Of a stretch of DNA of 61,516 bases, positions 3,617 through 51,105 are shown one piece after another. The position numbers and the translations under genes were made by a program. Origin of the DNA: Phycisphaerae bacterium. Lineage in GTDB: Bacteria; Planctomycetota; Phycisphaerae; UBA1845; PWPN01. Every line of letters begins with the position of its first letter. The stretch's first letter is position 1. Location of the stretch: positions 1-61,516 of the forward strand of contig JAAYDF010000022.1 in NCBI GenBank assembly GCA_012729395.1, in the 5' to 3' direction. A model generated the notes under the pieces. The model had not been told where the DNA came from. It did no database searches and saw nothing but the letters and a program-made list of their open reading frames with translations.

Positions 3617-6600
3617 TCATGGCGAACCCCACCAATAAGTCACAGGCATTTGGCGCACAGAGTTGGTGCCGCAGTGCACCTCTCCGCGCCAGTGGTGGTA
3701 CCAGTGCCAATCTGGGACATAGGCGGGGGGCCAAAGGCCAGCCGCCTGGAACTCCGAGTTCATGTCTTGCTCAAAGCGTGAAGGACCGCCGGGCTGCTCG
3801 CTCGGCCCATGCGTCATCGGCGGGACGAACGCAGTCAACAACGGGTAGAGCCCATTGACGAGACCTGCGGAGTAGGCGGTGGCTGCCCCGAATTTCTCAA
3901 ACCAGACAGGGACCCACAGATAGTCCGTGGCCGGATCGAGTCCCAGTCCAATCTGCAAGGTCGTTCGACTGGAGGAGATGTTGGCCTCAATAGTGAGATT
4001 GTAGGCTTGGTTCATCTCAGCCGGAGCATTTGGTCCAAGCAGGAAAGCGATCGTTTCCAACTCCTCGCTTGGAGGATTGGGGGGCGTGGCAAGCGGACTC
4101 GTGCCGTGGCCTTGAGCGATCATCAACTGCATGATATCGAGTGCGCGTTGCGGACTGGCTACGGCGACTCGGAAGCCTTGACTCCCGGCTCCTGGGATGA
4201 AGCTGAAGATTTCGTCCACGTGGCCGACTCGAAGGAACGACGTATTGACCTCGACAGGGCTCTGGATCTCCTGGGCCTGGAGAAAATCCGTTATCGCGGT
4301 CGGCATTGTCCCATGCACGATTCGCCCCAGAGGGTATACAGCGCCGTTCACAGTCACCGGCGGCGATAGCTCCAGGTTGCCGAACGATGCGTGTGTATCG
4401 TTCGGCGGACCTGGGAGCTTGATGTAACCAAAATCTGGGCCAAGCAGTTCATGGTAGCCGAAAGCCCGCAAACCCGGACCTCTGTTTCGCGGAGAGTTGA
4501 GAACAACATGGAACGACTTGTAAGGCGCCTGGGTGTAGCCGATTTCGATCTGATCTTGAATCCAACGGTCCTGGTCATAAGCCCTTCCATTGATGCGCCG
4601 GATCGGCCCTGCGGCATCTTCCAGCGCAGTCAGGAAGGGCTCGTTGTCCTCATATTGAACGCCGGCATGCACATGCACCGCCATGACCTGCTCTGCGGCA
4701 CGTGTATGATCGAGCATCAGCCAGGGGGCCACCCGCAAGCGCACTCTGTCACACGCCACTTCTTGAACATTCGCTCGGATCAGGCACATTACGAGCGGAA
4801 GCTCCGGGGGGCTGAACTCGATGGTCGGGAATGACAACGCCTCCACATACAGGATCCCGCCATGCACGGCGAGAGAAGTGATCGTGGCATAATCATGACC
4901 ATCGCAGTAAGTGCAGTTCTGCGGGCCGAGCACGCATGCGCCGATGTAATCCAGCCGACCGTTCCCGTTGAGATCCTCTCCGGTGTCGAGAATACCGTTG
5001 TTGTTGAAGTCCTCATGCGTGTCGAGAGACCCGTTACCATTGAGATCCTCTTCTCGATCCAGGCTGCCATCTCCATCCTGGTCCTCGTCGGGATCCAGCA
5101 GGCCGTTGCCGTTCAGGTCCTCGTCACCATCAAGATGATGATCGCCGTCAAGATCCTCGTCCACCCAAACCCGCATGAAGGCGGCCGCGGCGGGAGTTCT
5201 ACGAAGCTCGACCGACCAACCCGCGGGCAATTCTCCCATAGGGCGAATGACGATCTGGGCCATGTCTTCGGAGTCGTTTGGGCCGTCGACCCAGTCGGTT
5301 GCCGCGTCTCGTAAATCAGAAAGCCGGTATCCAAGACCCGAGGGTGGTATCCCATGGCCCGTCGGCTGCCAACCCTCCAGCGCCAAACCCGAACTGTCGT
5401 TCCCGGTAACGACCGCCCAGAAGCCTTGCCAAGGGCCCGGTTGACTGATAGACACGAACCCGTTTTGCCATTGATTTGGAAACCAGGACTGGCTGCTATC
5501 CTCAAGCACGTAGGCTCCAATCTGCGTGCTGGTCCCGGAAACCTTGTTGTCGTCGTCGCAGTTGGCGAGAACTATCGCGCCGCGGCTATGTGACCACCTA
5601 TGCTCATCGATGTCGTCGTCCTCATCATCAGTGATGATACCGTTGCGGTTGGTGTCTACGTCGAGGTCGACGGGAACCACGCGGAAACGCACGCTGTCTT
5701 CATGGACGTATGCCCCTCGCTGACCTGGGCCGTCCGGATCCAGTTCTACACGGATTATCCTCGAATGCCCTGTAGCCACTCCCTCCAGCCAAAAGTGCAT
5801 TACCCGTTCCGCCTGGCAGCCGTCGCTGGACAGCTTCTTCAGATCCGTATACTCGCCCGGCGCTACCCAGTCGCCTCCGTCGAGAGCGCTACGCTTATCA
5901 CGCGCGACGTTGCCGGGCTTCTTCCATATCCTCACAAGCGAACCTCCCGAGCTCCCCTGTGGAGGCGTAGCCGGATCCATTGAACTGTAGGTGAAGCGCA
6001 GATAAGCCACCTCCGGGTCCACCGGCTCGGAGATCTCGACTACCAACTCCACAAAGTCGTTTTCGTTCGGGTTGATGTCATCGTCTGCGTTGCCTGCTAT
6101 CAGATCGTAGCCATCCGCCCAGTCAGTGATGCCATCCTCATCGTCGTCGTTATTGTTGAGCACAACGATGACACCGGGCGGGGTCAGCTCCTGGTTGTCC
6201 TCGGCTTGGCTACGGTTGAGTGTGCCGTCGTTGTCGCTGTCCACGTCTACGTCCACCTTGACAACCGTAGCGACGGCCTTGTCCGGACAAAGGACGTTCT
6301 CGCCGGACACCTCCAGCTCCATGGTCACCCGGCCTGGTTCGATCCCCTCGGCCCAGAGGTGCCAGCCGTGGATCTCGCCGGTACTGTGCAAAAGGCCCGC
6401 CGCCAGATTATAGTCCGCTCCAATCTCCTTCCAGCAGGTGTATTCGCCTGTGTCCGGACACTCCGTGTCGCAAAGAGGATTGACCGCGAAGATCCGCAGC
6501 TTTGCACGGTCGCCGACCAGATGTGCAGTGATCTGCTCCAGGAAAGTGTCGTCGCCCGGTCCAATGACCACCTGGAAACTGTGCATGTCCTGGGTCACTA

Positions 6601-8152
6601 CCTGCACGGTCGAACCTTCCTCACACGTCACGTGGGTTGGCTCGAGAGAGATCCGATCCTCGTCATCGTCTTCCTCGTCGAAATCGTCGTTCACCGGAAT
6701 GTAGACGCCGGGCTCGTTTTCTTCCTCGGCTTCGGAGAGGCCGAACCGCAAGTCGGCATCGACGACCGTGATGGTGATCATGTCTTCGCAATGCGGGCCG
6801 TCACCATCATGGACCAAGAGCGTCACCTCCCCCCTCCCGGAGAACAGCCCCTCAATGAACAAGGTACTGGGGATACCATTGTACAGCGACCAGGGAATAG
6901 GGTAGCAATTGGGGATCGGGTCCCCGCTCTTGTCCGGACTGTGCCACACGGCGAAGTAGTAACCATAGTAGCCGCACAGTGACCAATAGGCGTTGGCAGG
7001 ATCGTCGGGCGTGAAACCCGCGCTCAAACTGATCGGAACCAAGTCATTCTCGTCCACGATGGGGCCTGCCTGACAGTAATCCTGAACACCATCGCCGTTG
7101 TCGTCGTCCTTGTTCACACAAAGTAGCCCGCCGGGGCTGGTCATCTCGTCCTCTTCCGCGAGGCCGGGGTAGCTCAGATCCGTCCGAACGACGGTCGCCG
7201 TCGCCGTCGCTTGGCAGCTCAGATTGCAGGCTTGGTCGAAGACCTCGACCTCGAAAGTCGCGGTGGCCCCGACAGGGGCTTGCGGCTCCATGAACACAAT
7301 GATGCCAAACTGTTCGGACTGGCCCGGAGACAGGGTTGCACCCCCGCATGCCTGGAAGCCCAGGGACTCCCAGTCTTCGATGCCGCAACCGCTGCATCCC
7401 CCCCACGAGAAGATGTAATGGCACAGCCAAAACCAGTCAGGGTTGCCCGAGGTCTGCTTGATCCGCCAGCGATACGTCCCATACTCGTCGCCGGTATTGG
7501 TAATGGTGAGGTACGCCCAATCCGAGGAACCCGCACAGGCGACAGCGTTCTCCATGGTGACCGCACAGCCGGGAGCCGGATCCACCACCACCACTACCGT
7601 ATCCGTAGCGTCGGGATCCTTGGTCCAGCACGTTCCGGGAACCGTAGGGACGCACGTACACTCGGGCGAGGCCTCTGTCGCCAACACCTCGAGCGTGTAT
7701 GAGCCGGGCGTGGTCTCGTCGATGGCCGACCCCGCAAAAGACCACTGGATGTCGACCGGCCCGCCGCCTGTTTCCGTGGTCTCCTCGTGCTCCGTCCACA
7801 CACACTCCTGGCCTATCGGGGTGTCCGTCGTGTACCAGGTGTCCTTCTGGTTGTCGCGGTCGTCGTAAGATACCTGCAAGCCGAGGGACAACGCCCACTG
7901 CGAGGCGGTACGCGGCGGATCCGCGTTCGGACACCGCTCGCGAATATGTATGGGGGTGGTGACGGAGCCGCCCTCGTAGTCTCTGATCTCTACCGTCAGC
8001 GGCGCTCCCACAAGAAGATCACACTCCGATGGCGGCGGGGCGCCATAACAGCAGGCCTCCACTCGAGTGTCGCCCATGGCGAGCACCGTCAGCAGGGCTG
8101 CCGCCAGAGAGACCGGCACTGCAAGGCTTCTACTTCGCCATACGCTCGGCAT
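3617..8152 (-). CDS. Secreted multidomain peptidylarginine deiminase
   Basis: A 1511-residue protein. The C-terminal part is a PAD catalytic domain, which converts peptidyl-arginine to citrulline. All four catalytic residues are present: Asp1200 (RWIQD), His1311 and Asp1313 (VGHVDE) and Cys1494 (EVHCGTN). A PAD middle-domain signature with Ca-binding acidic residues (DVDTNRNGII...VLANCDDDN) lies at about 827-874. A tract of DxDxDG/DxNxNG repeats follows at about 993-1067. Upstream are several Cys-containing Ig-like segments, each closed by an acidic loop. The start at 8152 is chosen because it gives a signal peptide (SLAVPVSLAAALLTVLAMG). It overlaps the TPR gene's stop by 23 nt, implying translational coupling. 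Vertebrate PADs are about 660 residues and cytosolic; this one is exported and more than twice as long. Confidence 0.92.
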   Translation of the reverse strand: MPSVWRSRSLAVPVSLAAALLTVLAMGDTRVEACCYGAPPPSECDLLVGAPLTVEIRDYEGGSVTTPIHIRERCPNADPPRTASQWALSLGLQVSYDDRDNQKDTWYTTDTPIGQECVWTEHEETTETGGGPVDIQWSFAGSAIDETTPGSYTLEVLATEASPECTCVPTVPGTCWTKDPDATDTVVVVVDPAPGCAVTMENAVACAGSSDWAYLTITNTGDEYGTYRWRIKQTSGNPDWFWLCHYIFSWGGCSGCGIEDWESLGFQACGGATLSPGQSEQFGIIVFMEPQAPVGATATFEVEVFDQACNLSCQATATATVVRTDLSYPGLAEEDEMTSPGGLLCVNKDDDNGDGVQDYCQAGPIVDENDLVPISLSAGFTPDDPANAYWSLCGYYGYYFAVWHSPDKSGDPIPNCYPIPWSLYNGIPSTLFIEGLFSGRGEVTLLVHDGDGPHCEDMITITVVDADLRFGLSEAEEENEPGVYIPVNDDFDEEDDDEDRISLEPTHVTCEEGSTVQVVTQDMHSFQVVIGPGDDTFLEQITAHLVGDRAKLRIFAVNPLCDTECPDTGEYTCWKEIGADYNLAAGLLHSTGEIHGWHLWAEGIEPGRVTMELEVSGENVLCPDKAVATVVKVDVDVDSDNDGTLNRSQAEDNQELTPPGVIVVLNNNDDDEDGITDWADGYDLIAGNADDDINPNENDFVELVVEISEPVDPEVAYLRFTYSSMDPATPPQGSSGGSLVRIWKKPGNVARDKRSALDGGDWVAPGEYTDLKKLSSDGCQAERVMHFWLEGVATGHSRIIRVELDPDGPGQRGAYVHEDSVRFRVVPVDLDVDTNRNGIITDDEDDDIDEHRWSHSRGAIVLANCDDDNKVSGTSTQIGAYVLEDSSQSWFPNQWQNGFVSISQPGPWQGFWAVVTGNDSSGLALEGWQPTGHGIPPSGLGYRLSDLRDAATDWVDGPNDSEDMAQIVIRPMGELPAGWSVELRRTPAAAAFMRVWVDEDLDGDHHLDGDEDLNGNGLLDPDEDQDGDGSLDREEDLNGNGSLDTHEDFNNNGILDTGEDLNGNGRLDYIGACVLGPQNCTYCDGHDYATITSLAVHGGILYVEALSFPTIEFSPPELPLVMCLIRANVQEVACDRVRLRVAPWLMLDHTRAAEQVMAVHVHAGVQYEDNEPFLTALEDAAGPIRRINGRAYDQDRWIQDQIEIGYTQAPYKSFHVVLNSPRNRGPGLRAFGYHELLGPDFGYIKLPGPPNDTHASFGNLELSPPVTVNGAVYPLGRIVHGTMPTAITDFLQAQEIQSPVEVNTSFLRVGHVDEIFSFIPGAGSQGFRVAVASPQRALDIMQLMIAQGHGTSPLATPPNPPSEELETIAFLLGPNAPAEMNQAYNLTIEANISSSRTTLQIGLGLDPATDYLWVPVWFEKFGAATAYSAGLVNGLYPLLTAFVPPMTHGPSEQPGGPSRFEQDMNSEFQAAGLWPPAYVPDWHWYHHWRGEVHCGTNSVRQMPVTYWWGSP
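4950..5175 (-). other. Calcium-binding DxDxDG repeat tract inside the PAD gene
   Basis: About six consecutive units of the form EDLNGNGxLD or EDQDGDGSLD, resembling thrombospondin type-3 or dockerin-like Ca loops. They lie between the PAD middle-domain signature and the catalytic domain. As DNA it is a degenerate repeat with a period near 36 bp. Confidence 0.75.
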
Positions 8153-9533
8153 GTTGTCGCTCCACTTTGTCGGTCCGCCGGTTGGCGGTGCGCGTAAAAC
8201 CCGAACTCGGGAATCGCTCTGCCAGCTCAGTCGCCAGGGCCCGGATCTCACTGGGAGGTGCGCCCGCCTGGGACTTGGCGTACTGGAGTTGATAGATGGC
8301 CCGGTCCAAAACCTGTTCGCCTGGCCAATAGTCCACGCCGCGGGGACACAGGGTCAGCACGAACTCCCAATGGGGAATCGCCTCGGCGTATCGATTCTGG
8401 CTCAAGAGCGACTCGGCCACAAAAGTGGAAGCGGTGGCGATCTCACGGTTGAACTCCGCCTTGCCTTTGTACTTCTCGAAGAGTGCGTTGGCTGCGACGT
8501 AGACATCTTCGCGTTGCTTGCGCCAAGCGTAGGTCTCGAGAAGGATGAGTTCCGCTTTGCACCGGTAGATGGCCGGGGCGGATTGCGAGGCGGCCAGGCG
8601 TCTGCAGCGGGCTTCGAGTTCCACCCACCGTTGCGGATCAATGGTTCGCTTATGCCAGGAGTCGACGCGCAGGCTCTCATAGGCCATGCCGATAAGCTGT
8701 AACGCCGCCTCGGCCGCCAGGGCGGGAGCTCCGGAATCCCCTTCCACTGCCATGAACATCGCGCGGGCATGCTCGGGGTAGTGTAGCCTGCGGTAAATGG
8801 CCCCAAGCCGAACACGGGCTCGTCGAACCACTCGCGAGGTGGGGGCGCTGTCACCTACCATCTCCAACACTCGGAGGAAGGGCTCGGTCGCCTCGTGGTA
8901 GCAATCTTGCTTGAGGAAGACATGGCCCATGTGATCCAGCGCCCGCAGTGAGGCCGGCGTACCTGAAAAACGCGATAGAACCTCGCTCATGAGTCGGAGT
9001 GATTCCGCGAGATCCCCTGCCTTGTAGGCTTGGCGGCCCGCCTCGTAGACCTCGCTAGCCGCGTTTTCGGCGCGGATGAGCCGATCGTCGTCGATCGGCG
9101 CTCCCTCCTCCATGTGGGCCAGCAGGGTGTACATCGCCGCAGCTCTTGAGAGCTCCGGAAAACGGGCCATGAAGTCAATGGCGGCGGCCCGCGCCTCCGG
9201 CAACCGCTCGGCCGCCAGGCACAGTCGGGCCTTGTGATACAACGCCTCGCTGAGCACATAATCGGAAGCGGGGCCTGCCAACGCGACCTTACAAGCCTCG
9301 ATGGCCGAGCCGACCTGCCCGTCGGCTTCAAGCTGCCTGATAGCGGTGATCGGCGAGGCCGGAGACGGCGATTGGCCACGCACGGCTTGGGCAGACGAGA
9401 TCACGCCCAAAGCCAGGACCAACAGGCCAAACAGACGGCACAAAGGGCAACAAGGCACGACCGACACCCCGCGGCGAACCTCCGAAACCATTTGGCCGAC
9501 TACAAGTAGGGTATGCCGAGGATAGGACATCAT
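8130..9533 (-). CDS. Exported TPR-repeat protein
   Basis: A 467-residue protein. The tandem ATG at 9533/9530 is preceded by GGAGGAG about 6 nt upstream; an in-frame start further upstream lacks this. A long N-terminal signal (hydrophobic FGLLVLALGVISSAQA) predicts export. The remainder is helical with TPR-type repeats, for example ALYHKARLCLAAERLPEARA and YQLQYAKSQAG, as in tol-pal YbgF-like or outer-membrane assembly TPR proteins. The last 23 nt overlap the start of the PAD gene, so the two are co-translated. It may be a periplasmic scaffold for the PAD protein. No enzyme motif was seen. Confidence 0.8.
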   Translation of the reverse strand: MMSYPRHTLLVVGQMVSEVRRGVSVVPCCPLCRLFGLLVLALGVISSAQAVRGQSPSPASPITAIRQLEADGQVGSAIEACKVALAGPASDYVLSEALYHKARLCLAAERLPEARAAAIDFMARFPELSRAAAMYTLLAHMEEGAPIDDDRLIRAENAASEVYEAGRQAYKAGDLAESLRLMSEVLSRFSGTPASLRALDHMGHVFLKQDCYHEATEPFLRVLEMVGDSAPTSRVVRRARVRLGAIYRRLHYPEHARAMFMAVEGDSGAPALAAEAALQLIGMAYESLRVDSWHKRTIDPQRWVELEARCRRLAASQSAPAIYRCKAELILLETYAWRKQREDVYVAANALFEKYKGKAEFNREIATASTFVAESLLSQNRYAEAIPHWEFVLTLCPRGVDYWPGEQVLDRAIYQLQYAKSQAGAPPSEIRALATELAERFPSSGFTRTANRRTDKVERQHAERMAK

Positions 9534-20105: not shown

Positions 20106-20146
20106 TCGATTATTGCCTCATGAAGCCAAGTCGTCCGACCAAGCCT

Positions 20147-20175
20147 TGACAGGCCACGCCCGCAAGTCATATGAT
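20147..20175 (+). promoter_or_regulatory. Near-consensus sigma70 promoter for the GntR gene
   Basis: TTGACA at 20147-20152, a 17-bp spacer and TATGAT at 20170-20175. Start of transcription is predicted near 20182, inside the adjacent palindrome. Confidence 0.75.
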
Positions 20176-20176
20176 G

Positions 20177-20188
20177 TCAGACGTCTGA
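20177..20188. promoter_or_regulatory. Palindromic operator candidate, TCAGACGTCTGA
   Basis: A perfect 12-bp palindrome directly downstream of the -10 element at 20170-20175, covering the predicted transcription start. It is well placed for repression by the FadR-type regulator encoded 45 bp downstream, and possibly for the divergent aldolase/BMC operon. Confidence 0.65.
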
Positions 20189-20232
20189 TGAATATCTTAC
20201 CCGGCGGTGACCGGAATGCAAGGAGCTCAACG

Positions 20233-20961
20233 GTGCTGGGAGCGGTTCGTCCAGCGGAACGTACGTCGATGGTGGAGGCCGTCACCGAGAAGCTGAGGCG
20301 GTTCATCGTGCAGAACAGCCTCTGTTCCGGGGACCGCCTGCCGAGCGAAGCGGAGCTGATGAAGCGACTCCGGGTGAGCAGACCGGTGCTCCGCGAAGCC
20401 ATCAACCGACTCGCCGCGATCGGTTTGTTGTCCGTGCGGCAAGGCAGCGGCACGTTCATCGCCCAGCGCGAATGGCTATCGAGCTGCATGAAGCTGGCCG
20501 GCAGCGCGATGACCATTGAGCCGAGAGAGCTTCTCCAGTTCGTCGAGTTCCGCCGCGTCATCGAAAGCTACGCCGCCCGTCACGCAGCCCAGACAGCCAA
20601 GCCCGAGCATGTGGACGCCCTCGAACGGACCTTGGAGGAGGCCCTGGACGTGGCCGACCACGGCAGCCAGCGAGCGATGGAGGCCGACTTCCGCTTCCAC
20701 TGCCTGCTGGTTGAGATTGGGGGCAATCGGCTGATGTGCAACCTGCTGGAGCTGCTTCACGAGTTCATTCTGGAAGGCATGAAACGTACCCAGCCGGCCG
20801 CGATGATCGATCCGCAGAGCGCCGCGATCCATCGGGGCATCGTCAAGGGCATTCGGGATCGCTCGCCGGCGGCAGCGGAACAGGCCATTCTGGCGCACAT
20901 GAACCTGCTCGCGCAACGGTTGCACGAGGCCCCCGATCATGAGAAGCAGGCCGGCGATTGA
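20233..20961 (+). CDS. GntR-family (FadR subfamily) transcriptional regulator
   Basis: A 242-residue regulator. The N-terminal winged helix has LPSEAELMKRLRVSRPVLREAINRLAAIGLLSVRQGSGTFI-type GntR signatures. The C-terminal helical FCD domain contains EFRRVIESYAARHAA, ADFRFHCLLVEIGGNRL and the His in AIHRGIVKGI, residues that bind metal and a small acid effector in this subfamily. The GTG at 20233 is chosen because AAGGAG lies 8 nt before it; an upstream in-frame ATG at 20188 lies inside the operator. It probably represses itself and the flanking sugar genes. Confidence 0.9.
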   Translation: MLGAVRPAERTSMVEAVTEKLRRFIVQNSLCSGDRLPSEAELMKRLRVSRPVLREAINRLAAIGLLSVRQGSGTFIAQREWLSSCMKLAGSAMTIEPRELLQFVEFRRVIESYAARHAAQTAKPEHVDALERTLEEALDVADHGSQRAMEADFRFHCLLVEIGGNRLMCNLLELLHEFILEGMKRTQPAAMIDPQSAAIHRGIVKGIRDRSPAAAEQAILAHMNLLAQRLHEAPDHEKQAGD

Positions 20962-21035
20962 AAAGCGGAGAGTTCGCGAAAGGGATAGGCAAAAGGGATA
21001 AGCGAGAGGGCTCGCGGAAAGCAGGAGACAGACAC

Positions 21036-23084
21036 TTGTCGCAACAGAGACAGCGATGGACGTGTGGTTTCACGATGGTTCTGGCCGCTTGCTCGCTTGC
21101 GTATGGAGTGGGGGTGACGCCGGCTGAGATGGCGGAAGCCCAGCGCTGGGTGACGGCGAGGTTTCAACAGGAGCCGCCGTTCTCGTTCACCTACGGGGGC
21201 AAGTCTTCCGCCGATCTGCTGGGCGGGTGGAAGGTGGAACGGACGTCGCGCGAGCTCGACGACGCGCGCACTGAGTACGAGTCGAGCTACACCGATCCGG
21301 CAACGGGCCTCGTCGTGCGATGCGTGGGGATCTCCTATGACGACTTCCCGACGGTTGAATGGACCGTGTATCTGAAGAATGCGGGCGAATCCGACACCCC
21401 GATCATTGCGGATATCCTCCCGCTCGACACGAAGCTCGAGCGAACCGGCGATGCGGAGTTCACCCTGCATCACGCCATCGGCAGCCCATACTCGGCTATC
21501 GATTATCAACCGCTGACCACCGTGTTGGCTGCCAAGTCGGAGAAGCGTATTGCCGCCGCGGGGGGCCGGCCGACCAACAGCGATCTGCCCTACTTCAACA
21601 TCGAATGGGAACATAACGGCGTCATCGTGGTGATCGGCTGGCCGGGCCAATGGTCCGCAAGATTCGTTCGCGACGAGGCGAAGGGTTTGCGGGTGCTCGG
21701 CGGGCAGGAGTTGACGCACCTGAAGCTGCACCCCGGCGAGGAGATTCGGACTCCGCTGGTCGTGCTCCAGTTCTGGAAAGGTGATCGCGTCCGCTCGCAG
21801 AACATCTGGCGAAGGTGGATGCGGGCCCACAACCTGCCCCGACCAGGCGGGAAGCCCCTGAAAGCGCAGACCGCCGCGTGCAGTTCGCACCAGTTCGGTG
21901 AGATGATCCACGCCAACGAGGAGAACCAGAAGTTCTTCATCGACCGCTACCTCGAAGAGGGCATCCCGCTGGACTATTGGTGGATGGATGCGGGCTGGTA
22001 TCCGGTTGACACGAGATACAACGAGTGGGGCTGGCCGAACACCGGCACATGGGAGGTGGACCGGCAGCGATTTCCCAACGGTCTACGGGCGATCAGCGAT
22101 CACGGCCGGGCGAAGGGTGTCCGGTCCATCGTCTGGTTCGAGCCGGAGCGGGTGACGCCGGGCACCTGGCTCTGGACGCACCGGCAGCACTGGCTGCTGG
22201 GGCCCAAGGCCGATCCCAATCAGGATGTGGCCGACCGAAGCAAGCCCGCCGACAAGCTGCTCGATCTCGGCAACCCGGAGGCGCTCGAATGGCTCATCGA
22301 TCACGTGGACGGGCTCCTGGTCTCCGAGGGGATCGATCTCTACCGGCAAGACTTCAACACGGATCCCCTCGGCCGCTGGCGGATGAGCGACGCCGAGGAT
22401 CGGCAAGGCATGACGGAGATTCGCTACGTGACGGGCTACCTGGCGTATTGGGATGAGCTACTGCGTCGCCATCCGGGCATGCTGATCGATTCATGTGCCT
22501 CGGGCGGCCGGCGTAATGATCTCGAGACCCTGCGGCGGGCGGTGCCGCTGCTCCGCAGCGACTACCTCCTCGAGCCCGTCAGCCAGCAGAACCACACTTA
22601 CGGGATTTCGTTTTGGTATCCGTTCTACGGCACGGGCATGACGCGCGAAGGCCTCTACGACTCGCGAAGCTGCTTCTGCCCGCACATGACCTGCTGCTAC
22701 GACATGCGGGACCGCAGCTACGACTGGGACCGGGCTCGCAGGGTGGTTCGCGAATGGCGGCAGGTCGCGCCGCACATGTTGAACGGCGACTACTACCCGC
22801 TGACGCCGTTCAGCCCGGCGAACGATGTCTGGATGGCTTGGCAGTTCGACATGCCCGAGACCGGCGAGGGCAGCGTGCAGGTCTTCCGGCGTGGGGCCAG
22901 TGTCTACCGCATGGCGGAGCTCAGACTGAAGGGCCTTGACCCGGAGAAGAAATACACGGTGACCGATTTGGACACGGGCAAGCCGTCGCTCGCGTCGGGG
23001 CGAATCCTGATGGAGGAAGGGCTTGCTGTCGAGATCACAGCCTGCCCGGGTTCGGCCTTGTTCACCTACCGTGTCGCGCCATAG
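21036..23084 (+). CDS. Exported GH36-type alpha-galactosidase
   Basis: A 682-residue GH36 (melibiase) family protein. N-terminal beta-sandwich, then a TIM barrel with WWMDAGWYPVDT, IVWFEPERV, the nucleophile Asp in LYRQDFNTD (codon 22350-22352), IDSCASGGRRND and the acid/base candidate Asp in LLRSDY. It hydrolyses terminal alpha-galactosides. The TTG at 21036 is preferred: AGGAGA lies 7 nt before it and the product then has a signal sequence (GFTMVLAACSLAYG, possibly a lipoprotein). An in-frame TTG at 20958 overlaps the GntR stop but gives a poor signal. It lies 75 bp after the regulator gene and 9 bp before the ribokinase gene. Confidence 0.92.
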   Translation: MSQQRQRWTCGFTMVLAACSLAYGVGVTPAEMAEAQRWVTARFQQEPPFSFTYGGKSSADLLGGWKVERTSRELDDARTEYESSYTDPATGLVVRCVGISYDDFPTVEWTVYLKNAGESDTPIIADILPLDTKLERTGDAEFTLHHAIGSPYSAIDYQPLTTVLAAKSEKRIAAAGGRPTNSDLPYFNIEWEHNGVIVVIGWPGQWSARFVRDEAKGLRVLGGQELTHLKLHPGEEIRTPLVVLQFWKGDRVRSQNIWRRWMRAHNLPRPGGKPLKAQTAACSSHQFGEMIHANEENQKFFIDRYLEEGIPLDYWWMDAGWYPVDTRYNEWGWPNTGTWEVDRQRFPNGLRAISDHGRAKGVRSIVWFEPERVTPGTWLWTHRQHWLLGPKADPNQDVADRSKPADKLLDLGNPEALEWLIDHVDGLLVSEGIDLYRQDFNTDPLGRWRMSDAEDRQGMTEIRYVTGYLAYWDELLRRHPGMLIDSCASGGRRNDLETLRRAVPLLRSDYLLEPVSQQNHTYGISFWYPFYGTGMTREGLYDSRSCFCPHMTCCYDMRDRSYDWDRARRVVREWRQVAPHMLNGDYYPLTPFSPANDVWMAWQFDMPETGEGSVQVFRRGASVYRMAELRLKGLDPEKKYTVTDLDTGKPSLASGRILMEEGLAVEITACPGSALFTYRVAP

Positions 23085-23093
23085 GAGCCTGGC

Positions 23094-24068
23094 ATGAGCA
23101 TCGTCTCAACGCGTCGTCCGCGAATTGTCGTTGTCGGCAGCATCGTCTTCGATTGCGTCGCGAAGGCTGATCGTCTGCCGCGCAAGGGCGAGACGGTTCT
23201 CGGGCGAAGTTTCGGCATGTTCTCCGGGGGTAAGGGTGCGAACCAGGCCGTCCAGGCGGCACGACTGGGTGCCGAGGTGTATATGGTCGGGCGGGTCGGC
23301 CAGGATTCGCTGGCGGATCACGTCCTGAAGAACCTGAAGGCCGGCGGCGTCGATACGCGGTACATCAAGCAGGATCCATCGGTTGCGACCGGGGCGTGCG
23401 GCATTCACGTGGACGCGGCGGGCGACAATACCATCGTGATCGTCCCGGAGGCGAATTTGGCCTGCTCCCCTGAGGATGTGGACGCCGCACGGGAGGTTCT
23501 CGCGTCGGCGGACATCCTGCTGTGCCAGTTCGAGATCGCGATGCCCACGGTGGCTTACGCCCTCGATGTCGCCGCCGAGCTGGGTGTGCGGGTTGTTTTG
23601 AACCCCGCGCCTGCTCAGCCGGCCTCGACCGGTCTGTGTTCGAGGGCGACGGTCCTGACCCCGAACGAAACCGAGGCGGAGCTGCTGGCCGGGGTACCGC
23701 TGCCGTCCGGTGAATCGAACGCGCGAGCCAGCAGCGACTGGGAGATCGAAGTATCGTCTCGGCTACTGGGAATGGGGCCTCAGGCGGTCGTCATCACCCT
23801 GGGAAACCGTGGGGCCTACCTGGCGAACGGGGCGGGCGGACGGCTCATCCCCGCCTACCAGGTGTCGCCCGTGGATGTGACGGCGGCGGGCGATGCGTTC
23901 AACGGGGCGTTGGCCGTCGCCATGGCTGAGAGCCGGGAGATGACACAGGCCATCGCGTTCGCGAACGCGGCGGGCGCCCTGGCCACGACACGGGCGGGAT
24001 CGCAGCCGTCGCTCGCCACGCGGCGCGAGGTCGAGGACTTCCTGCGGAACGCGGTTGTGGTGTCCTGA
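23094..24068 (+). CDS. rbsK: Ribokinase (PfkB family sugar kinase)
   Basis: A 324-residue sugar kinase. Start VVVGSIVFDCVAKADRLPRKGET, sugar-binding GGKGANQAVQAARLGA, NPAPAQP, LTPNETEAELLAG and the PfkB C-terminal signature DVTAAGDAFNGAL, with the catalytic Asp, are all ribokinase-like. It would phosphorylate ribose or a related pentose using ATP, feeding the phosphosugar aldolases of the divergent operon. AGGAG lies 6 nt before the ATG and the upstream GH36 stop is 9 bp away, so it is in the same operon. About 10-15 residues longer than E. coli RbsK. Confidence 0.9.
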   Translation: MSIVSTRRPRIVVVGSIVFDCVAKADRLPRKGETVLGRSFGMFSGGKGANQAVQAARLGAEVYMVGRVGQDSLADHVLKNLKAGGVDTRYIKQDPSVATGACGIHVDAAGDNTIVIVPEANLACSPEDVDAAREVLASADILLCQFEIAMPTVAYALDVAAELGVRVVLNPAPAQPASTGLCSRATVLTPNETEAELLAGVPLPSGESNARASSDWEIEVSSRLLGMGPQAVVITLGNRGAYLANGAGGRLIPAYQVSPVDVTAAGDAFNGALAVAMAESREMTQAIAFANAAGALATTRAGSQPSLATRREVEDFLRNAVVVS

Positions 24069-24145: not shown

Positions 24146-24988
24146 ATGAGTACACACGGGAAGCTATCTGGCAAGCGGGCCCTGGTCACCGGCTCGGGGA
24201 CGGGGATCGGGCGGGAGATTGCCCTGGAGTTTGCCCGGCAAGGCGCGGATGTCGTTCTCCATTACTCGCACAGCAAAGCGGGAGCGGAGGTGGCGGTCCA
24301 CGAGATTGAGTCCATGGGCCGGCGAGCAGCGTTTTTCAAGGCGGATTTCGACTCGGTGTCTGAGGCGGTTGGCTTGGCGGACCAAGCGATCGATTTCCTG
24401 GGGGGGATCGATTGCCTGGTCAATAACGCCGGGATCACCTTCAACAAACCGTTTCTCGATGTGACGCCCGAGCAGTTCGACAAGATGTATCACGTCAACA
24501 TTCGGGCTCAGTTCGTTCTCGGGCAACGGGTGGTCAAGGACATGCTGAGTCACGGAGGCGGCGCGCTATGTAACATCAGCTCGATCCACGGTCTGCAGGG
24601 CGCACCGGAGCATTCGGTCTATGCCGGCACGAAGGGTGCGATCATCGGTTACACCCGGGCCCTGGCGGTGGAGTTGGCCCACCAAGGCGTTCGGGTGAAC
24701 GCCATCGCGCCGGGGTGGGTCACCGTCGAGAACTACCACAAGGCGTTACCCGGATTCAACGAGCGGGACGCACGGGAGAGTGCCAGCCGGTCGGTCCCCG
24801 TGGGCCGAGCCGGCGTACCCCTGGACATCGCTCGTCTGGCAGTCTTCCTCTGTTCCGACGATGCCGGGTACATCATCGGGCAAACCATCGTTGCCGACGG
24901 CGGTACGACTTCGTTGATGTCGTTGATTTCGGATTTCCGCAATCCGTCATCGGCGCGATTCGGGACCGGCTATTTGCCGGGCGTATGA
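24146..24988 (+). CDS. Short-chain dehydrogenase/reductase (operon copy 1)
   Basis: A 280-residue classical SDR: TGSGTGIGREIA (cofactor-binding Gly motif), VNNAGIT, Ser in ISSIHG, and YAGTK with catalytic Tyr and Lys, then VNAIAPGWV. It ends in a longer tail (SDFRNPSSARFGTGYLPGV) than usual. The ATG at 24146 has GGAGAGG 8 nt upstream. It probably oxidises a sugar or sugar alcohol with NAD(P). Neighbours are ribokinase and a RhaT-type transporter. Confidence 0.9.
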   Translation: MSTHGKLSGKRALVTGSGTGIGREIALEFARQGADVVLHYSHSKAGAEVAVHEIESMGRRAAFFKADFDSVSEAVGLADQAIDFLGGIDCLVNNAGITFNKPFLDVTPEQFDKMYHVNIRAQFVLGQRVVKDMLSHGGGALCNISSIHGLQGAPEHSVYAGTKGAIIGYTRALAVELAHQGVRVNAIAPGWVTVENYHKALPGFNERDARESASRSVPVGRAGVPLDIARLAVFLCSDDAGYIIGQTIVADGGTTSLMSLISDFRNPSSARFGTGYLPGV

Positions 24989-25117
24989 CCCAGGACACGC
25001 GGAAGCCCGCGAGCAAGAGGAGGCCGGCCTCATGCCGTCCCCACTCACTGTAGAAGGAAGGACTTCACCAGATACCTGCCATCCGTCACCGCAGGTCGAC
25101 AGGAGAGGATGTTGCTC

Positions 25118-26365
25118 ATGATGCACACATTGCTTGGCGTGATGGTCGTCGCGGTCGCGGGGCTGATCATGGGCAGCGGCGCCTGGCCGTTCAAGCTCAT
25201 GCGCAAGTTCCAGTTTGAGCATTGGTGGTTCATCGGCATGCTGGTCGGGCTGATCATCATGCCTTGGGCGATCATGCTGATGGGTTGCCCGGGCGCTCTT
25301 GAAGGGCTTCGAGCCGTGCCGGCCAGCGCGATCATCAAAGCGAACCTGTTCGCCTGCGGCTGGGGGATCGCCAACGTGCTGTGCGGGTTGTGTTTCGTGC
25401 GCATCGGCATGGCTCTGACGGGGGCCATTCTCAGTGGTCTGGGGGTCTCCGTGGGGGCCATTGTGCCGATGGTGTTCAAGGGTTCCGGCCTGTTCAAGGG
25501 GGCTGCGGATCTCAACTCGCCCGCGGGGTTGACCGTTCTGGTCGCGGTGGCGGTCATGCTCTTGGGCGTCATGCTTGCATCGCTCGCAGGTTTTGGTCGG
25601 GACCGCGAGCTCAAGAAGCTACAGGCGACCTCAGGCGGGTTCATGGGCGGATTGCTCATGGCCGCCGCCGCGGGCCTGTTGTCCACCGGTATCGCGTTTT
25701 CTTACGTCTACAGCCAAGATCCGATCGCGGCCAATCTCAGCATGATTCGGCCGGCCAGCACCATCACCGTGGCGATTGAAGAAAATGAAGAGCTTTCGGG
25801 CCAACGCGAGGTCCGGCCGGACGGCACGATTGACCTGCCGGGTGTCGGGCCGGTGAGCGTCGCCGGCCTCAATGCCCGACTCGCGTCCGAACGCATCCAG
25901 GAACAACTCGCCGCCAGCGGAATCATGAAGTCATCCACGGTGCGAATTGATACGGGTAGTATCGTGGTTACTTTTGCCGTCTTCGCGGTCAGCCTGCTCA
26001 GCGGGGCGATGGTCAACATCGGCTATGCCGCCTATTTGCTGACTCGAAACAAATCATGGCATGTGTTCACTCAGAGTTGGAAGGAAATCGGCCTGGCCGT
26101 GGTGATCGGAGTCAACATCAGCCTGGCCACCACGTTGATGGGCAAGGGCATGCTCTTGCTCGGGACGCTGGGAGCCTCGGTCGGCTGGGGCATACAGCAG
26201 GCCATGCAGATGACGGGCAGCCAGGCGGTAGGGTTCATCAGCGGCGAGTGGCGAGGAGTCGCCGGCAGGCCGCGCCTCCAGATGTACCTGGCCATCGCCA
26301 TCCTCATCGTCGCCGCCTCGATCATGGCGTACAGCAACACGCTGCCTAAGTACTGGTCCAAGTAA
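25118..26365 (+). CDS. RhaT-family sugar/proton symporter with an inserted Poly_export-like domain
   Basis: A 415-residue membrane protein of the L-rhamnose-proton symporter (RhaT, DMT-type) family; E. coli RhaT is 344 residues. About ten hydrophobic helices are visible; family-like segments include SGAWPFKLMRKFQFEHWWF, NVLCGLCFVRIGMALTGAI and GASVGWGIQQAMQMTGSQAVGFISGEW. Between the sixth and seventh helices (residues about 208-282) is a soluble segment: RPASTITVAIEENEELSG, EVRPDGTIDLPGVGPVSVAG, then ASERIQEQLAASG. This is the pattern of the Poly_export/SLBB beta-grasp domain of Wza-type proteins. The ATG at 25118 is chosen because AGGAGAGG directly abuts the ATG at 25109. Substrate, likely a deoxy or other monosaccharide, is unproven. 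Confidence 0.87.
   Translation: MMHTLLGVMVVAVAGLIMGSGAWPFKLMRKFQFEHWWFIGMLVGLIIMPWAIMLMGCPGALEGLRAVPASAIIKANLFACGWGIANVLCGLCFVRIGMALTGAILSGLGVSVGAIVPMVFKGSGLFKGAADLNSPAGLTVLVAVAVMLLGVMLASLAGFGRDRELKKLQATSGGFMGGLLMAAAAGLLSTGIAFSYVYSQDPIAANLSMIRPASTITVAIEENEELSGQREVRPDGTIDLPGVGPVSVAGLNARLASERIQEQLAASGIMKSSTVRIDTGSIVVTFAVFAVSLLSGAMVNIGYAAYLLTRNKSWHVFTQSWKEIGLAVVIGVNISLATTLMGKGMLLLGTLGASVGWGIQQAMQMTGSQAVGFISGEWRGVAGRPRLQMYLAIAILIVAASIMAYSNTLPKYWSK
25736..25963 (+). other. Poly_export-like insertion in the RhaT gene
   Basis: Codes for roughly 75 hydrophilic residues in place of a short inter-helix loop. It has the Poly_export signature: an ELSG turn, VRPDGTIDLPGVGPV, then VAGL followed by an amphipathic helix ending in QEQLAASG. 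Confidence 0.7.
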
Positions 26366-26397: not shown

Positions 26398-27462
26398 ATG
26401 AATGAGCATTTGATCGCCGTTCTGAAGAGCGTCGGCAAGCCGACGGAGTCGTACACCTGTCCCGATGGCAGCACCGTGCTCCTGTTACCGCACGGCGGTC
26501 GCGTCCTCGGACTGTTCTCGCCCGGCAGCGAAGAAAACTTCTACTGGACACATCCAGCCCTCGGCAGCGTCGCATCGGCCCGTACGTTCTACGCCGGCGA
26601 CGAGTGGCAGAACTCCGGCGGCGATCGAACCTGGCTGGCTCCCGAGGTGGACGTCTTCTTCCCGAACTACCCCAGTCTGGACAAGTACTGGCAGCCGCGC
26701 GAGCTCGATCCCGGTCGCTACGAAATCGTCCGGGACGGCGATCGCATGCGTCTCGTGAACCGGCTGTCTTGCCCGTTGTCGCGGCTGAAGCGGTCCGTCG
26801 AGCTGGAGATTGCCAAGTCGATCTCGCCGGCCCCGAATCCGCTGCGGTATGAGCGGACGGCAGAGGACTTGTGCCGACTCGAGTATGCGGGATACACGCA
26901 GTACACCTCGCTGACCATGCTGGCAGACAATCCAAGCTTGCCGGCCCAGGTGGGGCTCTGGAATCTTGTGCAGATGCCACACGGCGGCGACTTGCTGGTT
27001 CCGACCTACGGGAAATCGCAACCCGCCATCTGCTTCGGCTCCATCGCGACGGAGGATCTGATCGTCGGCGATCATCTGATCCGCTACCGAATGCGAGCGG
27101 AGGGTGAACACAAGATCGCGATCCGGGCCGTGGCCACCACCGGCCGCGTGGGTTACCTCTACCGACATGGCTCGCAATGGGTGCTTATCATTCGCAACTT
27201 CTTCGTCAACCCGTCCGGGGAATATGTCGACGTTCCGTGGAAAGACCCAAGCGATCTGGGCTACTCGACGCAGGCATGCAACGTGAACAGCCACTTGGGC
27301 AGCTTCAGCGAACTGGAGTATCACATCCCGGCCATTGGGGCCGGCACCGGCCTCACCCGATGCGACGACTGGGCACAAGTATGGGCGTTCCGCGGCTCGC
27401 AGGAACTGATCTGCGCGGCTGGGCGGCTTCTTCTATCTCCGGATATGCAGGTGAATCAATGA
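26398..27462 (+). CDS. DUF6786-like (aldose-epimerase-like) protein
   Basis: A 354-residue cytosolic protein without a signal peptide. It begins like galactose-mutarotase-fold proteins of planctomycete sugar operons (STVLLLPHGGRVLGLFSPGSEENFYWT) and continues with WLAPEVDVFFP and YTSLTMLADNP. I think it belongs to the DUF6786 family, recalled from memory. No catalytic assignment can be made; a sugar-binding or mutarotase role would fit the operon. GGGAG lies 10 nt before the ATG. Its stop overlaps the next SDR start (ATGA). Confidence 0.75.
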   Translation: MNEHLIAVLKSVGKPTESYTCPDGSTVLLLPHGGRVLGLFSPGSEENFYWTHPALGSVASARTFYAGDEWQNSGGDRTWLAPEVDVFFPNYPSLDKYWQPRELDPGRYEIVRDGDRMRLVNRLSCPLSRLKRSVELEIAKSISPAPNPLRYERTAEDLCRLEYAGYTQYTSLTMLADNPSLPAQVGLWNLVQMPHGGDLLVPTYGKSQPAICFGSIATEDLIVGDHLIRYRMRAEGEHKIAIRAVATTGRVGYLYRHGSQWVLIIRNFFVNPSGEYVDVPWKDPSDLGYSTQACNVNSHLGSFSELEYHIPAIGAGTGLTRCDDWAQVWAFRGSQELICAAGRLLLSPDMQVNQ

Positions 27463-28244
27463 AAGTGGATTTGTCAGGCAAGGTGGCAATGGTGACAGGC
27501 GCGGCTCGGGGGATCGGCAAGGCGATCGCCGATGTGCTGGCGGAGAACGGCGCCCGGGTCATCTACACGGACATCGAGACGGCCGCCGCCCGCGAAGCCG
27601 CCGCCAAGTATCCGCTCTGCAAGGCGGTGGAGATGAACGTCGCCGACAAGAAGCAGGTGGACGCGGTCGTACAAGCGTTGGTAAGCGAGTTCGGCCACCT
27701 GGACATTGTCGTCAACAACGCCGGCGTCAACACCATCAAGCATCGGGTCACGACCGAGCAGTTTCCCAGCGAGGAGTGGAACCGCATCATCGATGTCGAC
27801 CTGACGGGCGTGTACATCGTCAGCCACGCCGTCGCTCGCGTGATGGTCGCTCAGCAATCCGGGCGCATCATCAACATCTCGTCGATCGCCGGCCAAGTCG
27901 CGTTGCGATTGCAGAGTCCCTACGTCGCGGCCAAACACGGCGTCATCGGATTGACCCGGGCCATGGCGATCGAGCTCGGACCGCAGGGCGTCCTGGTCAA
28001 CGCGATCGCGCCGGGCTCGACACTGACCGAAGGCACCAAGCAACTGTTCTACGGGGAAGACGGCAAGTTCCGGGATGCCGTGCAGCGATTGCTCGACCAT
28101 ATTCCTCTCGGCCGGCCCGGCGAGGCGGAGGAGATCGCCCACGCGGCACTGTTCCTGGCCGCTCCCGAGAGCAGCTACATCACCGGCACCGTATTGACGG
28201 TGGACGGCGGTTGGACCGCCGGCGGTTTCGCACGAGACTTCTGA
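27459..28244 (+). CDS. Short-chain dehydrogenase/reductase (operon copy 2)
   Basis: A 261-residue classical SDR: TGAARGIGKAIA, VNNAGVN, Ser in ISSIAG, YVAAK with catalytic Tyr and Lys, VNAIAPGS, and the C-terminal SYITGTVLTVDGGWTAGG. NAD(P)-dependent oxidation or reduction of a sugar is likely. The ATG at 27459 overlaps the upstream stop, so the start is fixed by coupling; longer in-frame openings run into the upstream gene. It is similar to, but not a recent duplicate of, the SDR at 24146. Confidence 0.9.
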   Translation: MKVDLSGKVAMVTGAARGIGKAIADVLAENGARVIYTDIETAAAREAAAKYPLCKAVEMNVADKKQVDAVVQALVSEFGHLDIVVNNAGVNTIKHRVTTEQFPSEEWNRIIDVDLTGVYIVSHAVARVMVAQQSGRIINISSIAGQVALRLQSPYVAAKHGVIGLTRAMAIELGPQGVLVNAIAPGSTLTEGTKQLFYGEDGKFRDAVQRLLDHIPLGRPGEAEEIAHAALFLAAPESSYITGTVLTVDGGWTAGGFARDF

Positions 28245-28284: not shown

Positions 28285-28707
28285 ATGGCCGAGTTCAAGG
28301 TCCACAAAGGATACAAAGACGATCGTCCGCCCGTCATCCCCAAACCCGACAAGCCGGTCGATCCCATGATTGTCACGGTGCAGGAAGGGGTGCCGATTGT
28401 GTACCCCGGCTGTTACGGCGCGGCCGTGCGGGTCGTACATCCGGTCAACCCAAACGCGCCGGCCAAAAGCCTGGGGCTGGTGATGTTCTACCTCCCGCCC
28501 CACGCAATCCTGCAGCCCGGTTCGCACGAAACAGAGGAAACGTACATCATCCTCGAAGGCAAGGGCACGATGACGTTCGCCAACTACAAACGCGACGTCA
28601 AGAAGGGCGATTTTGTCTACCTGCCCCCCTGGTGCCTGCACGGGATTGAGAATACGGGGACGGAGACCCTGGTCGTGTTGATCGCGACCTCTCCGCCCAA
28701 TCCGTGA
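28285..28707 (+). CDS. Cupin-domain protein
   Basis: A 140-residue single-cupin protein. Cupin motif 1 is represented by PGSHETEETYIILEGKGTM (His, Glu and Glu metal ligands) and motif 2 by GDFVYLPPWCLHGIEN (final His). It would bind a metal and act as a sugar isomerase/epimerase or as a sensor. AAAGGAATGG precedes the ATG. It lies 40 bp after the SDR and 91 bp before the second GH36 gene, in the sugar operon. Confidence 0.87.
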   Translation: MAEFKVHKGYKDDRPPVIPKPDKPVDPMIVTVQEGVPIVYPGCYGAAVRVVHPVNPNAPAKSLGLVMFYLPPHAILQPGSHETEETYIILEGKGTMTFANYKRDVKKGDFVYLPPWCLHGIENTGTETLVVLIATSPPNP

Positions 28708-28798: not shown

Positions 28799-31279
28799 AT
28801 GTTCCAATCGCTCAGACTCGTATCGATCTTGGTTTTTGCCGGCATGGTACCGGCTGCGATCGCGGCACCCCCGACGCCGGAGGAATTCCGCCTCCGCCAA
28901 AGCTGGTTGAACCGTGTCTTCTCGGCCGGCGAGAGCTCGGCCCCCGCCTTCATCGAAGTCGTCTACGAAGACACACCGGAAACGATCGCGCGAACGCGCT
29001 CGTGGCGCGGCACGCCATTCCAACTCGGCGAGAAAACCTATGCCAATGGCTTGGCCTTCAACTCCACCAAGCATATCGTCGTGCATCTCGGCAAGCCCGC
29101 GCGGCGCTTCACCGCGGAAATCGGGATCGAGAACAACGACAACACCCGACAAGGCGAAGCCCAGGGGCAGGGCTCAGCCACCTTCCATGTGCTGGCCAAG
29201 GGGAAAGAGGTCTTCACCTCGCCGGTGTTGCGACGCAAAGACGGCCCATCTCCCGTGGACGTGTCCCTCGATGGAGCCAATGAGTTCGAGATCCGGATCA
29301 AGGACGGCGGCGACGGACGCGGCTGGGACCAGGGGCTCTGGGCCGAGGCGAAGGTACTGACGGAGGACGGCACGGTCATCTCGCTTCATGAGCTGCCGAT
29401 GCAGGGTAATCCATTCGGGATCTCGTTCCGTTACGGCTCACAAGGCAGCGAAGACCAGCTCGGCCGATGGACCCGGACGACGCAAGAGCAGGCCTTGAGT
29501 CCCAACGTCTCTCGCCGTGAAGTGACCTACGCGGACCCGGCCACCGGCCTCGAGATCCGGGTGCGGGCCGACCAGTTCAAGGACTACCCCGCTGTGGAGT
29601 GGGTGGCGTACCTGACCAACCACGGGAACGCCAAAACACCCATCATCGAGAACATCCTGCCGATGGACGGCATCCTGCCCGTCTCAACCTCCGGCTCAGC
29701 CACATTGCACTGGGCCAAGGGCGGCGTGTCGACATTCGACGATTTCATGCCGCAAACGACCACCCTGAAGCCGGGCGAGAAGACCCGCCTGCAACCGGGC
29801 GGTGGACGCTCGTCAAACTCGGTGCTGCCCTTCTTCAACATCGAGGGAATCGATGGTGGAGTGGTGGCGGCGATCGGGTGGACCGGCGAATGGGCTGCCG
29901 AGTTCGGCTGCGACGCGTTCGGACAGGTCAGCCTGAAGGCGGGGATGGATCGCACACATCTGTCTCTGCTGCCCGGCGAGACTATCCGCACGCCCAAAAT
30001 CATGCTGCTCTTCTATCAGGGTGATCGCTGGCAGGGGCAGAATCTCCTGCGTCAGTTTGTCCTGACCCATCATCGTCCGAAGCGGGACGGTGAACCTCTT
30101 GTTGCCCCCATCACCTGCGGCAACTGGGGCGGCACTCGCGCTGAAGTGCACATGGACAACATCCAGAAGTTCATCAAGCACGACCTGCCCATCGAGTACT
30201 ACTGGATCGACGCCGAGTGGTATGGCCAGGGCAGTTGGGCGTCCAACGTGGGGAACTGGCAGGTCAATAAGAGCCTGTATCCCCATGGGTTCAAGCCCCT
30301 CAGCGATACCCTGAAGGCCACCGGCCGCAAGCTGATGGTCTGGTTCGAGCCGGAACGCGTCATGAAGGGAACGCCATGGGCCAAGGAGCATCCGGATTGG
30401 ATGTTCGATGTGGGAAGCGATACGCTTCTTTTGAATCTGGGCAATCCCGAAGCACGACAGTTCGTCACCGATTTCATATCCGAGAAGATCGATGAGTTCG
30501 GTCTGGGCTGTTATCGGCAGGATTTCAACATGGAGCCCCTTGGCTTCTGGCGCGCCGCTGATGCCCCCGATCGCCAGGGAATATCGGAAATCAGGCACAT
30601 CGAAGGGCTCTATGCGTTCTGGGACAGCCTTCTTGAGCGGCATCCGCACCTGCTGATCGACAACTGCGCCTCGGGTGGTCGCCGGATCGATTTGGAAACG
30701 ACGGGTCGTTCGACCCCGTTCTGGCGAACCGACGGCCCACGCGACGCCATCGCTCATCAATGCCACAGTTACGGCTTGATGGCTTGGGTTCCCCTCAGCG
30801 CCATCAGCCAGGACCGCGAGGGTGACACCTACGAGTTCCGCAGCAGCATGTGCAGTGCCTTGTGCATCAACTGGGATCACTCCGGCGACGGTCCCCGCGA
30901 ACGGCATCCGGACGATTTCCCCTTCGCCTGGGCCAAGGCGGTTCTGGATCAGTACCTCGAGATTCGCGATTACTACTACGGAGACTACTACCCGCTCACG
31001 AGCTACTCACAGAACGCGGACGTCTGGATGGCTTATCAACTCGATCGGCCGGATGCCGGTACGGGCCTGGTGGTCGCCCTCCGTCGGCCGGAGAGCCCCT
31101 ACAAGGCCGCTCGATTACGACTCCACGCCCTGGACCCCAAAGCCTCCTACCGCGTCACCGATCTCGATACCGACGAACAGGTGACGAGCACGGGCGACGA
31201 GTTGACGCGGCAAGGTCTCGATGTCGTGCTCCAGGAAAGGTCGGGTTCCGCCCTGCTGGTCTATCAACGTCAGCCATAA
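28799..31279 (+). CDS. Exported NPCBM-GH36 alpha-galactosidase
   Basis: An 826-residue protein. Signal peptide (LVSILVFAGMVPAAIAAP), then an NPCBM carbohydrate-binding domain at about 45-200 (GLAFNSTKHIVVHLG, GIENNDNTRQG, GNEFEIR-like DGANEFEIRIKDGGDG). A GH36 module follows with YWIDAEWYG, VWFEPERV, nucleophile Asp in CYRQDFNMEP, IDNCASGGRRID and acid/base candidate Asp in FWRTDGP. It is paralogous to the GH36 protein at 21036 but has the extra NPCBM. GAGGAG lies 7 nt before the ATG. Two alpha-galactosidases in one cluster suggest a galactoside-rich glycan substrate. Confidence 0.92.
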   Translation: MFQSLRLVSILVFAGMVPAAIAAPPTPEEFRLRQSWLNRVFSAGESSAPAFIEVVYEDTPETIARTRSWRGTPFQLGEKTYANGLAFNSTKHIVVHLGKPARRFTAEIGIENNDNTRQGEAQGQGSATFHVLAKGKEVFTSPVLRRKDGPSPVDVSLDGANEFEIRIKDGGDGRGWDQGLWAEAKVLTEDGTVISLHELPMQGNPFGISFRYGSQGSEDQLGRWTRTTQEQALSPNVSRREVTYADPATGLEIRVRADQFKDYPAVEWVAYLTNHGNAKTPIIENILPMDGILPVSTSGSATLHWAKGGVSTFDDFMPQTTTLKPGEKTRLQPGGGRSSNSVLPFFNIEGIDGGVVAAIGWTGEWAAEFGCDAFGQVSLKAGMDRTHLSLLPGETIRTPKIMLLFYQGDRWQGQNLLRQFVLTHHRPKRDGEPLVAPITCGNWGGTRAEVHMDNIQKFIKHDLPIEYYWIDAEWYGQGSWASNVGNWQVNKSLYPHGFKPLSDTLKATGRKLMVWFEPERVMKGTPWAKEHPDWMFDVGSDTLLLNLGNPEARQFVTDFISEKIDEFGLGCYRQDFNMEPLGFWRAADAPDRQGISEIRHIEGLYAFWDSLLERHPHLLIDNCASGGRRIDLETTGRSTPFWRTDGPRDAIAHQCHSYGLMAWVPLSAISQDREGDTYEFRSSMCSALCINWDHSGDGPRERHPDDFPFAWAKAVLDQYLEIRDYYYGDYYPLTSYSQNADVWMAYQLDRPDAGTGLVVALRRPESPYKAARLRLHALDPKASYRVTDLDTDEQVTSTGDELTRQGLDVVLQERSGSALLVYQRQP

Positions 31280-51065: not shown

Positions 51066-51105
51066 CACGCGTGCCTTTGGTGTCTGCCTCGCTTCCCGGG
51101 CGGCG

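Follow-up and report, generated by a model that had tools for sequence, protein, structure and literature searches.

RhaT proteins form the L-rhamnose/H+ symporter family (PF06379) of the DMT superfamily. OPX proteins, exemplified by Wza and by WzaB of M. xanthus, handle polysaccharide, and a survey of over 91,000 of them describes a Poly_export domain at the N-terminus that is followed by SLBB, the domain predicted to meet the sugar (PMC9603273). Domain 1 (D1) of Wza is reported to contact the forearm of Wzc, and its deletion causes Wza and the inner-membrane Wzc to cease to co-localise (PMC12881504). Some planctomycetes are described as taking polysaccharide into the periplasm (PMC5520146).

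A protein combining features of both systems is encoded in the stretch of 61,516 nucleotides from a Phycisphaerae bacterium analysed here (hereafter the window). It resembles the RhaT family in its profile score, which lies above the gathering score, in its 10-helix DMT fold and in its sugar-catabolic context, but it falls far below the NCBIfam equivalog cut-offs and carries an extra, apparently periplasmic domain. This domain has the fold and the profile of domain 1 of OPX proteins, whereas its location, inside a transporter of the inner-membrane type and without an SLBB or Wza_C match, differs from the N-terminal place ahead of SLBB described for OPX proteins. The protein does carry Poly_export, but with neither an SLBB domain after it nor a place at the N-terminus it falls outside the OPX proteins and is better seen as an importer that captured an OPX domain. 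A literature search, conducted mostly outside subscription journals, found no described case of a fusion between RhaT and Poly_export, and the protein is most suitably classified as a novel domain architecture within a known kind of transporter.

The transporter and its gene neighbourhood

The transporter ORF (25109-26365, + strand) encodes 418 aa and offers three candidate ATG codons, at 25109, 25118 and 25121. Translation probably begins at 25118 or 25121, because a likely ribosome-binding site, AGGAGAGG, can be read directly at 25101-25108 (+), with the ATG at 25118 nine bases on, and because homologues start level with the ATG codons at 25118-25121 in the alignment. The start at 25118 chosen in the original prediction is plausible on both grounds, the end of AGGAGAGG at 25108 and the level beginning of the homologues. 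The ORF matches the RhaT profile PF06379 with an E-value of 2.5e-14 (53.7 bits against a cut-off of 27), and the AlphaFold2 model (mean pLDDT 93.0, pTM 0.90, built from a 32-sequence alignment) is a confident 10-helix DMT transporter with an extra domain folded between TM6 and TM7. By profile and fold the transporter is thus a RhaT-family protein, as originally proposed. It did not pass the NCBIfam RhaT equivalog test (best score 131.6 bits against a cut-off of 369), and going by these cut-offs it should not be classed as an L-rhamnose RhaT. Family and operon together point to a role as an importer.

Comparison of the model with known structures agrees with this assignment. When the whole protein was submitted to Foldseek, the best rows alternated between OPX proteins and DMT transporters. 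With VIA-align, the transporter shell matched LicB (Z 27.4, rmsd 2.5 over 272 residues), 5i20 (Z 23.5; the database row reads only 'protein', and we take the entry to be YddG), and several nucleotide-sugar transporters and other DMT entries.

The gene group lies on the + strand and is headed by a GntR/FCD regulator (20113-20961; PF00392, PF07729). It continues with a GH36-like (melibiase) glycoside hydrolase (20958-23084; PF02065, 3.3e-25), a ribokinase-like PfkB sugar kinase (23094-24068; PF00294, and TIGR02152 at 319.8 bits against a cut-off of 299.65) and an SDR oxidoreductase, SDR1 (24146-24988), which has counterparts of 69-79% identity at 11 of the 15 loci examined. Downstream of the transporter are a DUF6786-like protein (26398-27462), whose profile match is weak and below cut-off but which is conserved beside the transporter, a second SDR oxidoreductase, SDR2 (27465-28244), and a cupin (28285-28707), and then a GH36-like glycoside hydrolase with an NPCBM domain (28799-31279; PF02065, PF08305). 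Across the 15 loci of this comparison, some of which end at contig ends, SDR1 and DUF6786 are common to insert-bearing and insert-free loci, often together with SDR2, the cupin or GH36. The operon is a sugar-catabolic one, of the same type with and without the domain in its transporter. The loci of L087 and L088, in genomes G041 and G042, differ in having a run of three GH36-like genes upstream of the transporter; in the window, a single such gene lies to either side of it.

Four domain-free transporters, L017, L008, L011 and L012, illustrate this relationship. They are 61-70% identical to the window protein in both matching halves and share SDR1 and DUF6786 as neighbours. Unlike the window protein, they have a TM6-TM7 loop of 22 residues and no PF02563 match, in scans of L017 singly and of alignment A2 as a whole.

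Fold, borders and orientation of the inserted domain

Residues 213-280 of the transporter match the Poly_export profile PF02563 (profile positions 9-74 of 77, E 1.1e-11, 45.2 bits against a cut-off of 28). The inserted stretch also matches the NCBIfam exopolysaccharide export family TIGR03027, below the cut-off of that family (E 4.4e-7). In the Pfam scan of the 418-aa protein, no SLBB family was matched at E-values up to 10, and no match to Wza_C was found. Together with the VIA-align comparisons below and with the fold of the segment when modelled alone, the PF02563 match delimits an inserted Poly_export (OPX domain 1) module at residues 211-282 (25739-25954, +), between TM6 and TM7. In the AlphaFold2 model the module consists of four strands, one helix and a final strand, it is predicted with a pLDDT of about 89-97 in blocks of ten residues, and it runs directly into TM7.

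Residues 211-282 superimpose on M. xanthus WzaB with a Z of 12.9 (rmsd 1.1, 70 residues aligned) and on domain 1 of Wza (residues 85-165) with a Z of 10.6 (rmsd 1.4). Folded alone, the domain reached a pLDDT of 83.4. This lone model retrieved ten rows in Foldseek at E 3.6e-4 or better, all of them OPX, the next row being at E 1.1, and in VIA-align the OPX rows scored Z 9.1-13.1 against 5.2 for the next. Sequence searches of solved structures returned no match to the whole protein at E 0.1; the domain of the window by itself recovered WzaB at 0.05, and with the profile of the domain WzaB came up at 1.9e-5 but Wza no better than 0.056-0.068. The original prediction had named the insert Poly_export and placed it between helices, and had proposed profile searches with PF02563 and SLBB; profile and fold both bear out the identity, and the model assigns the position to the TM6-TM7 loop. 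That the protein is a RhaT/DMT-type transporter with a Poly_export domain in this loop is close to certain, its parts, insertion point, fold and recurrence being supported by sequence and model.

The distribution of charged residues suggests on which side of the membrane the domain lies. In all 32 proteins of the alignment, the odd loops carry 11-19 lysine and arginine residues and the even loops only 1-7, in a count that leaves loop 6 out of the even loops and takes the helix ends from the model. As even loops are poor in these residues, loop 6 with its domain would be periplasmic by the positive-inside rule, which supplies the side of the insert that the original prediction had left to a topology analysis. 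A literature search on RhaT topology yielded nothing useful.

Distribution and history of the insertion

Eight RhaT-like proteins with the Poly_export insert were found, in seven genomes: that of the window and L005, L006, L007, L013, L015, L016 and L064. All of these genomes are Planctomycetota wherever a title or kinship is given, the genome of L064 having been reached via the order of a Pirellulales genome. The search for further cases proposed in the original prediction thus returned seven more proteins from six other genomes, each with the insert in frame, at the same place and matching PF02563 at E 7.2e-5 or better. Beside the window protein, the scores are 24.3 bits for L005, 38.5 for L006, 28.4 for L007, 31.0 for L013, 28.4 for L015, 28.7 for L016 and 23.3 for L064; all eight match, and six reach the cut-off of 28, L005 and L064 falling below it. 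Within alignment A2, exactly 8 of the 32 members match PF02563. This recurrence in frame and at one place indicates that the insert is real and not an artefact, and an assembly chimera, a frameshift or chance could be ruled out. One genome, G766, harbours two insert-bearing copies, L007 and L013, whose transporter parts are 77% identical and whose domains are 53% identical, together with part of another RhaT-like gene, its third (L061).

The relatives were drawn in part from a scan of genome contigs (10 proteins) and otherwise from whole-genome searches, and these draws overlap. Among 114 genomes of the window's order, 12 have a RhaT-like match at 1e-10, with the domain in 3 of them. The domain is present in all three genomes with matches at 1e-35 among 397 genomes of the class, and in two of the three with matches among 392 genomes of the phylum. 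In the order of the L007 genome (296 genomes), 3 of the 12 genomes with a match have it, and the same three recur among the 14 genomes with a match in one family (119 genomes). RhaT-like matches in other phyla were found in 2 of 240 genomes (phylum of L012), 2 of 247 (phylum of L009) and 10 of 171 (phylum of L008), and no Poly_export insert occurred among those whose loci were aligned.

The TM6-TM7 loop was compared over 67 aligned RhaT-like rows, representing 66 distinct proteins. It measures 21-23 residues in 57 rows and 86-95 in the eight insert-bearing proteins, so that the extra stretch amounts to about 70 residues, and the transporter halves flanking it align throughout with homologues. 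Two other proteins have loops of intermediate length, 64 residues in L020 (genome G044) and 49 in L105 (G1748), with extra sequence that by eye is unlike Poly_export; given these, the site seems to accept inserts. The possibility that such an insert is common in RhaT homologues and unrelated to Poly_export was rejected, as the 67 rows contain eight Poly_export inserts and two others. Neither outcome that would have spoken against the original prediction, a profile match without significance or a common insert, was therefore observed.

In a tree of the transporter part, the eight insert-bearing proteins need two changes, L006 and L064 standing apart from the other six. A single clade of the eight occurs in 0% of 200 bootstrap trees; constraining the tree to one clade lowers the log-likelihood by 6.63, and the AU test does not reject this tree (p-AU 0.252). 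The insert may thus have been gained once and later lost in places, gained twice, or transferred. Its G+C content is within 0.05 of that of the rest of the gene in all eight cases, and in seven its GC3 falls below that of the rest, by at most 0.13, the exception being L016; these values give no clear sign of a recent patch of foreign DNA. The best explanation is that a Poly_export domain was inserted into the loop of an importer within the Planctomycetota.

The insert has diverged more than its host. Pairwise identities of the insert are 26-42%, except in the pairs L015/L016 (89%) and L007/L013 (53%), against 55-72% for the rest of the protein (98% and 77%, respectively, in these two pairs). 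Simple Nei-Gojobori counts for three pairs, of which the two distant ones are near saturation, gave Ka/Ks values of 0.056/0.115, 0.387/1.439 and 0.716/1.117 for the domain and 0.008/0.142, 0.176/1.294 and 0.208/1.151 for the rest, hence ratios of about 0.49, 0.27 and 0.64 versus about 0.06, 0.14 and 0.18. Ka is below Ks for the domain in all three pairs, and the eight proteins share only five invariant columns in it (V, G, A, A, I). On this comparison, the domain appears to be held to its fold and only loosely to its sequence.

Possible roles of the domain

The explanation tentatively preferred here is that the transporter takes in sugar released by the GH36-type enzymes of its operon, and that the Poly_export domain serves as a periplasmic protein-contact module. 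It would keep the importer assembled as an oligomer, or close to a partner in the periplasm, for instance a glycoside hydrolase, in the way that domain 1 of Wza joins Wza to the inner-membrane Wzc. As a whole, this explanation is somewhat more likely to be wrong than right, and the contact role in particular, whether self-assembly or the holding of a partner, is a plausible candidate that falls short of being probable. It is placed first on account of the likeness to domain 1 of Wza and of a fold that persists although the sequence changes; such conservation of the fold, with Ka below Ks and a drifting sequence, is more in keeping with a contact or scaffold role than with a fixed binding site. 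Several observations tell against it. Insert identity is low outside the two closest pairs, the five invariant residues belong to types that generally stabilise a fold, so that no conserved contact patch is apparent, and domain-free homologues in the same type of operon imply that the domain is not needed for the pathway. The preference of the tree for two changes, with p-AU 0.252 for one clade, also weighs against the explanation as a whole.

An alternative is that the domain is a tolerated passenger, a stably folded unit with hardly any function, or none, that persists in a loop accepting inserts. The greater divergence of the insert, its higher Ka:Ks ratio in the three pairs, the unrelated inserts of L020 and L105 at the same point and the constancy of the operon type all fit such a passenger, which we nonetheless consider somewhat unlikely: the domain is in frame and recognisable by its profile in all eight members, from distant planctomycete groups, and Ka is below Ks in every pair. 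Another role would be substrate capture, in which the domain binds sugar or oligosaccharide once it has been released into the periplasm and passes it to the transporter, or else gates the outer mouth of the transporter. Capture would agree with the placement of the domain, linked straight to TM6 and TM7 on the apparent periplasmic side, with the GH36-type hydrolases of the operon and with the handling of polysaccharide by OPX proteins. This role is distinctly unlikely, as none of the five invariant positions is polar and as the part of OPX proteins predicted in the survey to meet sugar is SLBB (PMC9603273), which was not found in the window protein.

The original prediction had suggested docking to an export or periplasmic complex, or else sugar sensing, and nothing in the present results ties the protein to an export complex. 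The domain is the one by which Wza is reported to meet Wzc (PMC12881504), and PF02563 matches were found in 11 of 11 genomes searched and, in each of the seven fusion genomes, at places other than the transporter, including three in the window's genome that are OPX-like by eye. Yet the neighbours are catabolic, SLBB and Wza_C are not matched, the same operon occurs with a domain-free transporter, and no other Poly_export match lies on the contigs of the eight fusions, two of which are short (5.6 and 6.9 kb). With no sign of an exporter gene nearby, docking to the polysaccharide export machinery, or membership of an exporter, is ranked last and appears highly improbable. Our best guess at the order of likelihood thus begins with a contact role, followed by a passenger as nearly its equal, then by sugar capture and lastly by the link to export. 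A bolder version of the contact role would make the importer the inner-membrane end of a trans-envelope assembly for uptake, with the domain forming rings or docking the importer onto a partner in the periplasm or outer membrane; sugars liberated in the large periplasm could then go directly to the importer. This version, in which an OPX module would work in uptake instead of export, is improbable.

Whichever role applies, seven genomes encode an importer with a Poly_export fold that seems to face the periplasm from the inner membrane. This offers a natural test of what the domain does apart from a secretion channel, whether it makes contacts, builds rings or handles sugar. The fusion is also relevant to the inward movement of sugar in planctomycetes, where the polysaccharide uptake into the periplasm described for some members (PMC5520146) makes a periplasm-facing fixture on an importer plausible while proving nothing. 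Even as a passenger, the domain would show cleanly that a transporter can accommodate a soluble domain between two of its helices.

Elsewhere in the window, a 1544-aa ORF at 3617-8251 (- strand) matches protein-arginine deiminase, a family best known from animals, in its C-terminal residues 1166-1541 (PF03068, E 4.2e-72). A 544-aa ORF with a TIR domain (49620-51254, - strand; PF13676, E 4.9e-11) overlaps the start of a glycosyltransferase family 2 ORF (48037-49650, - strand).
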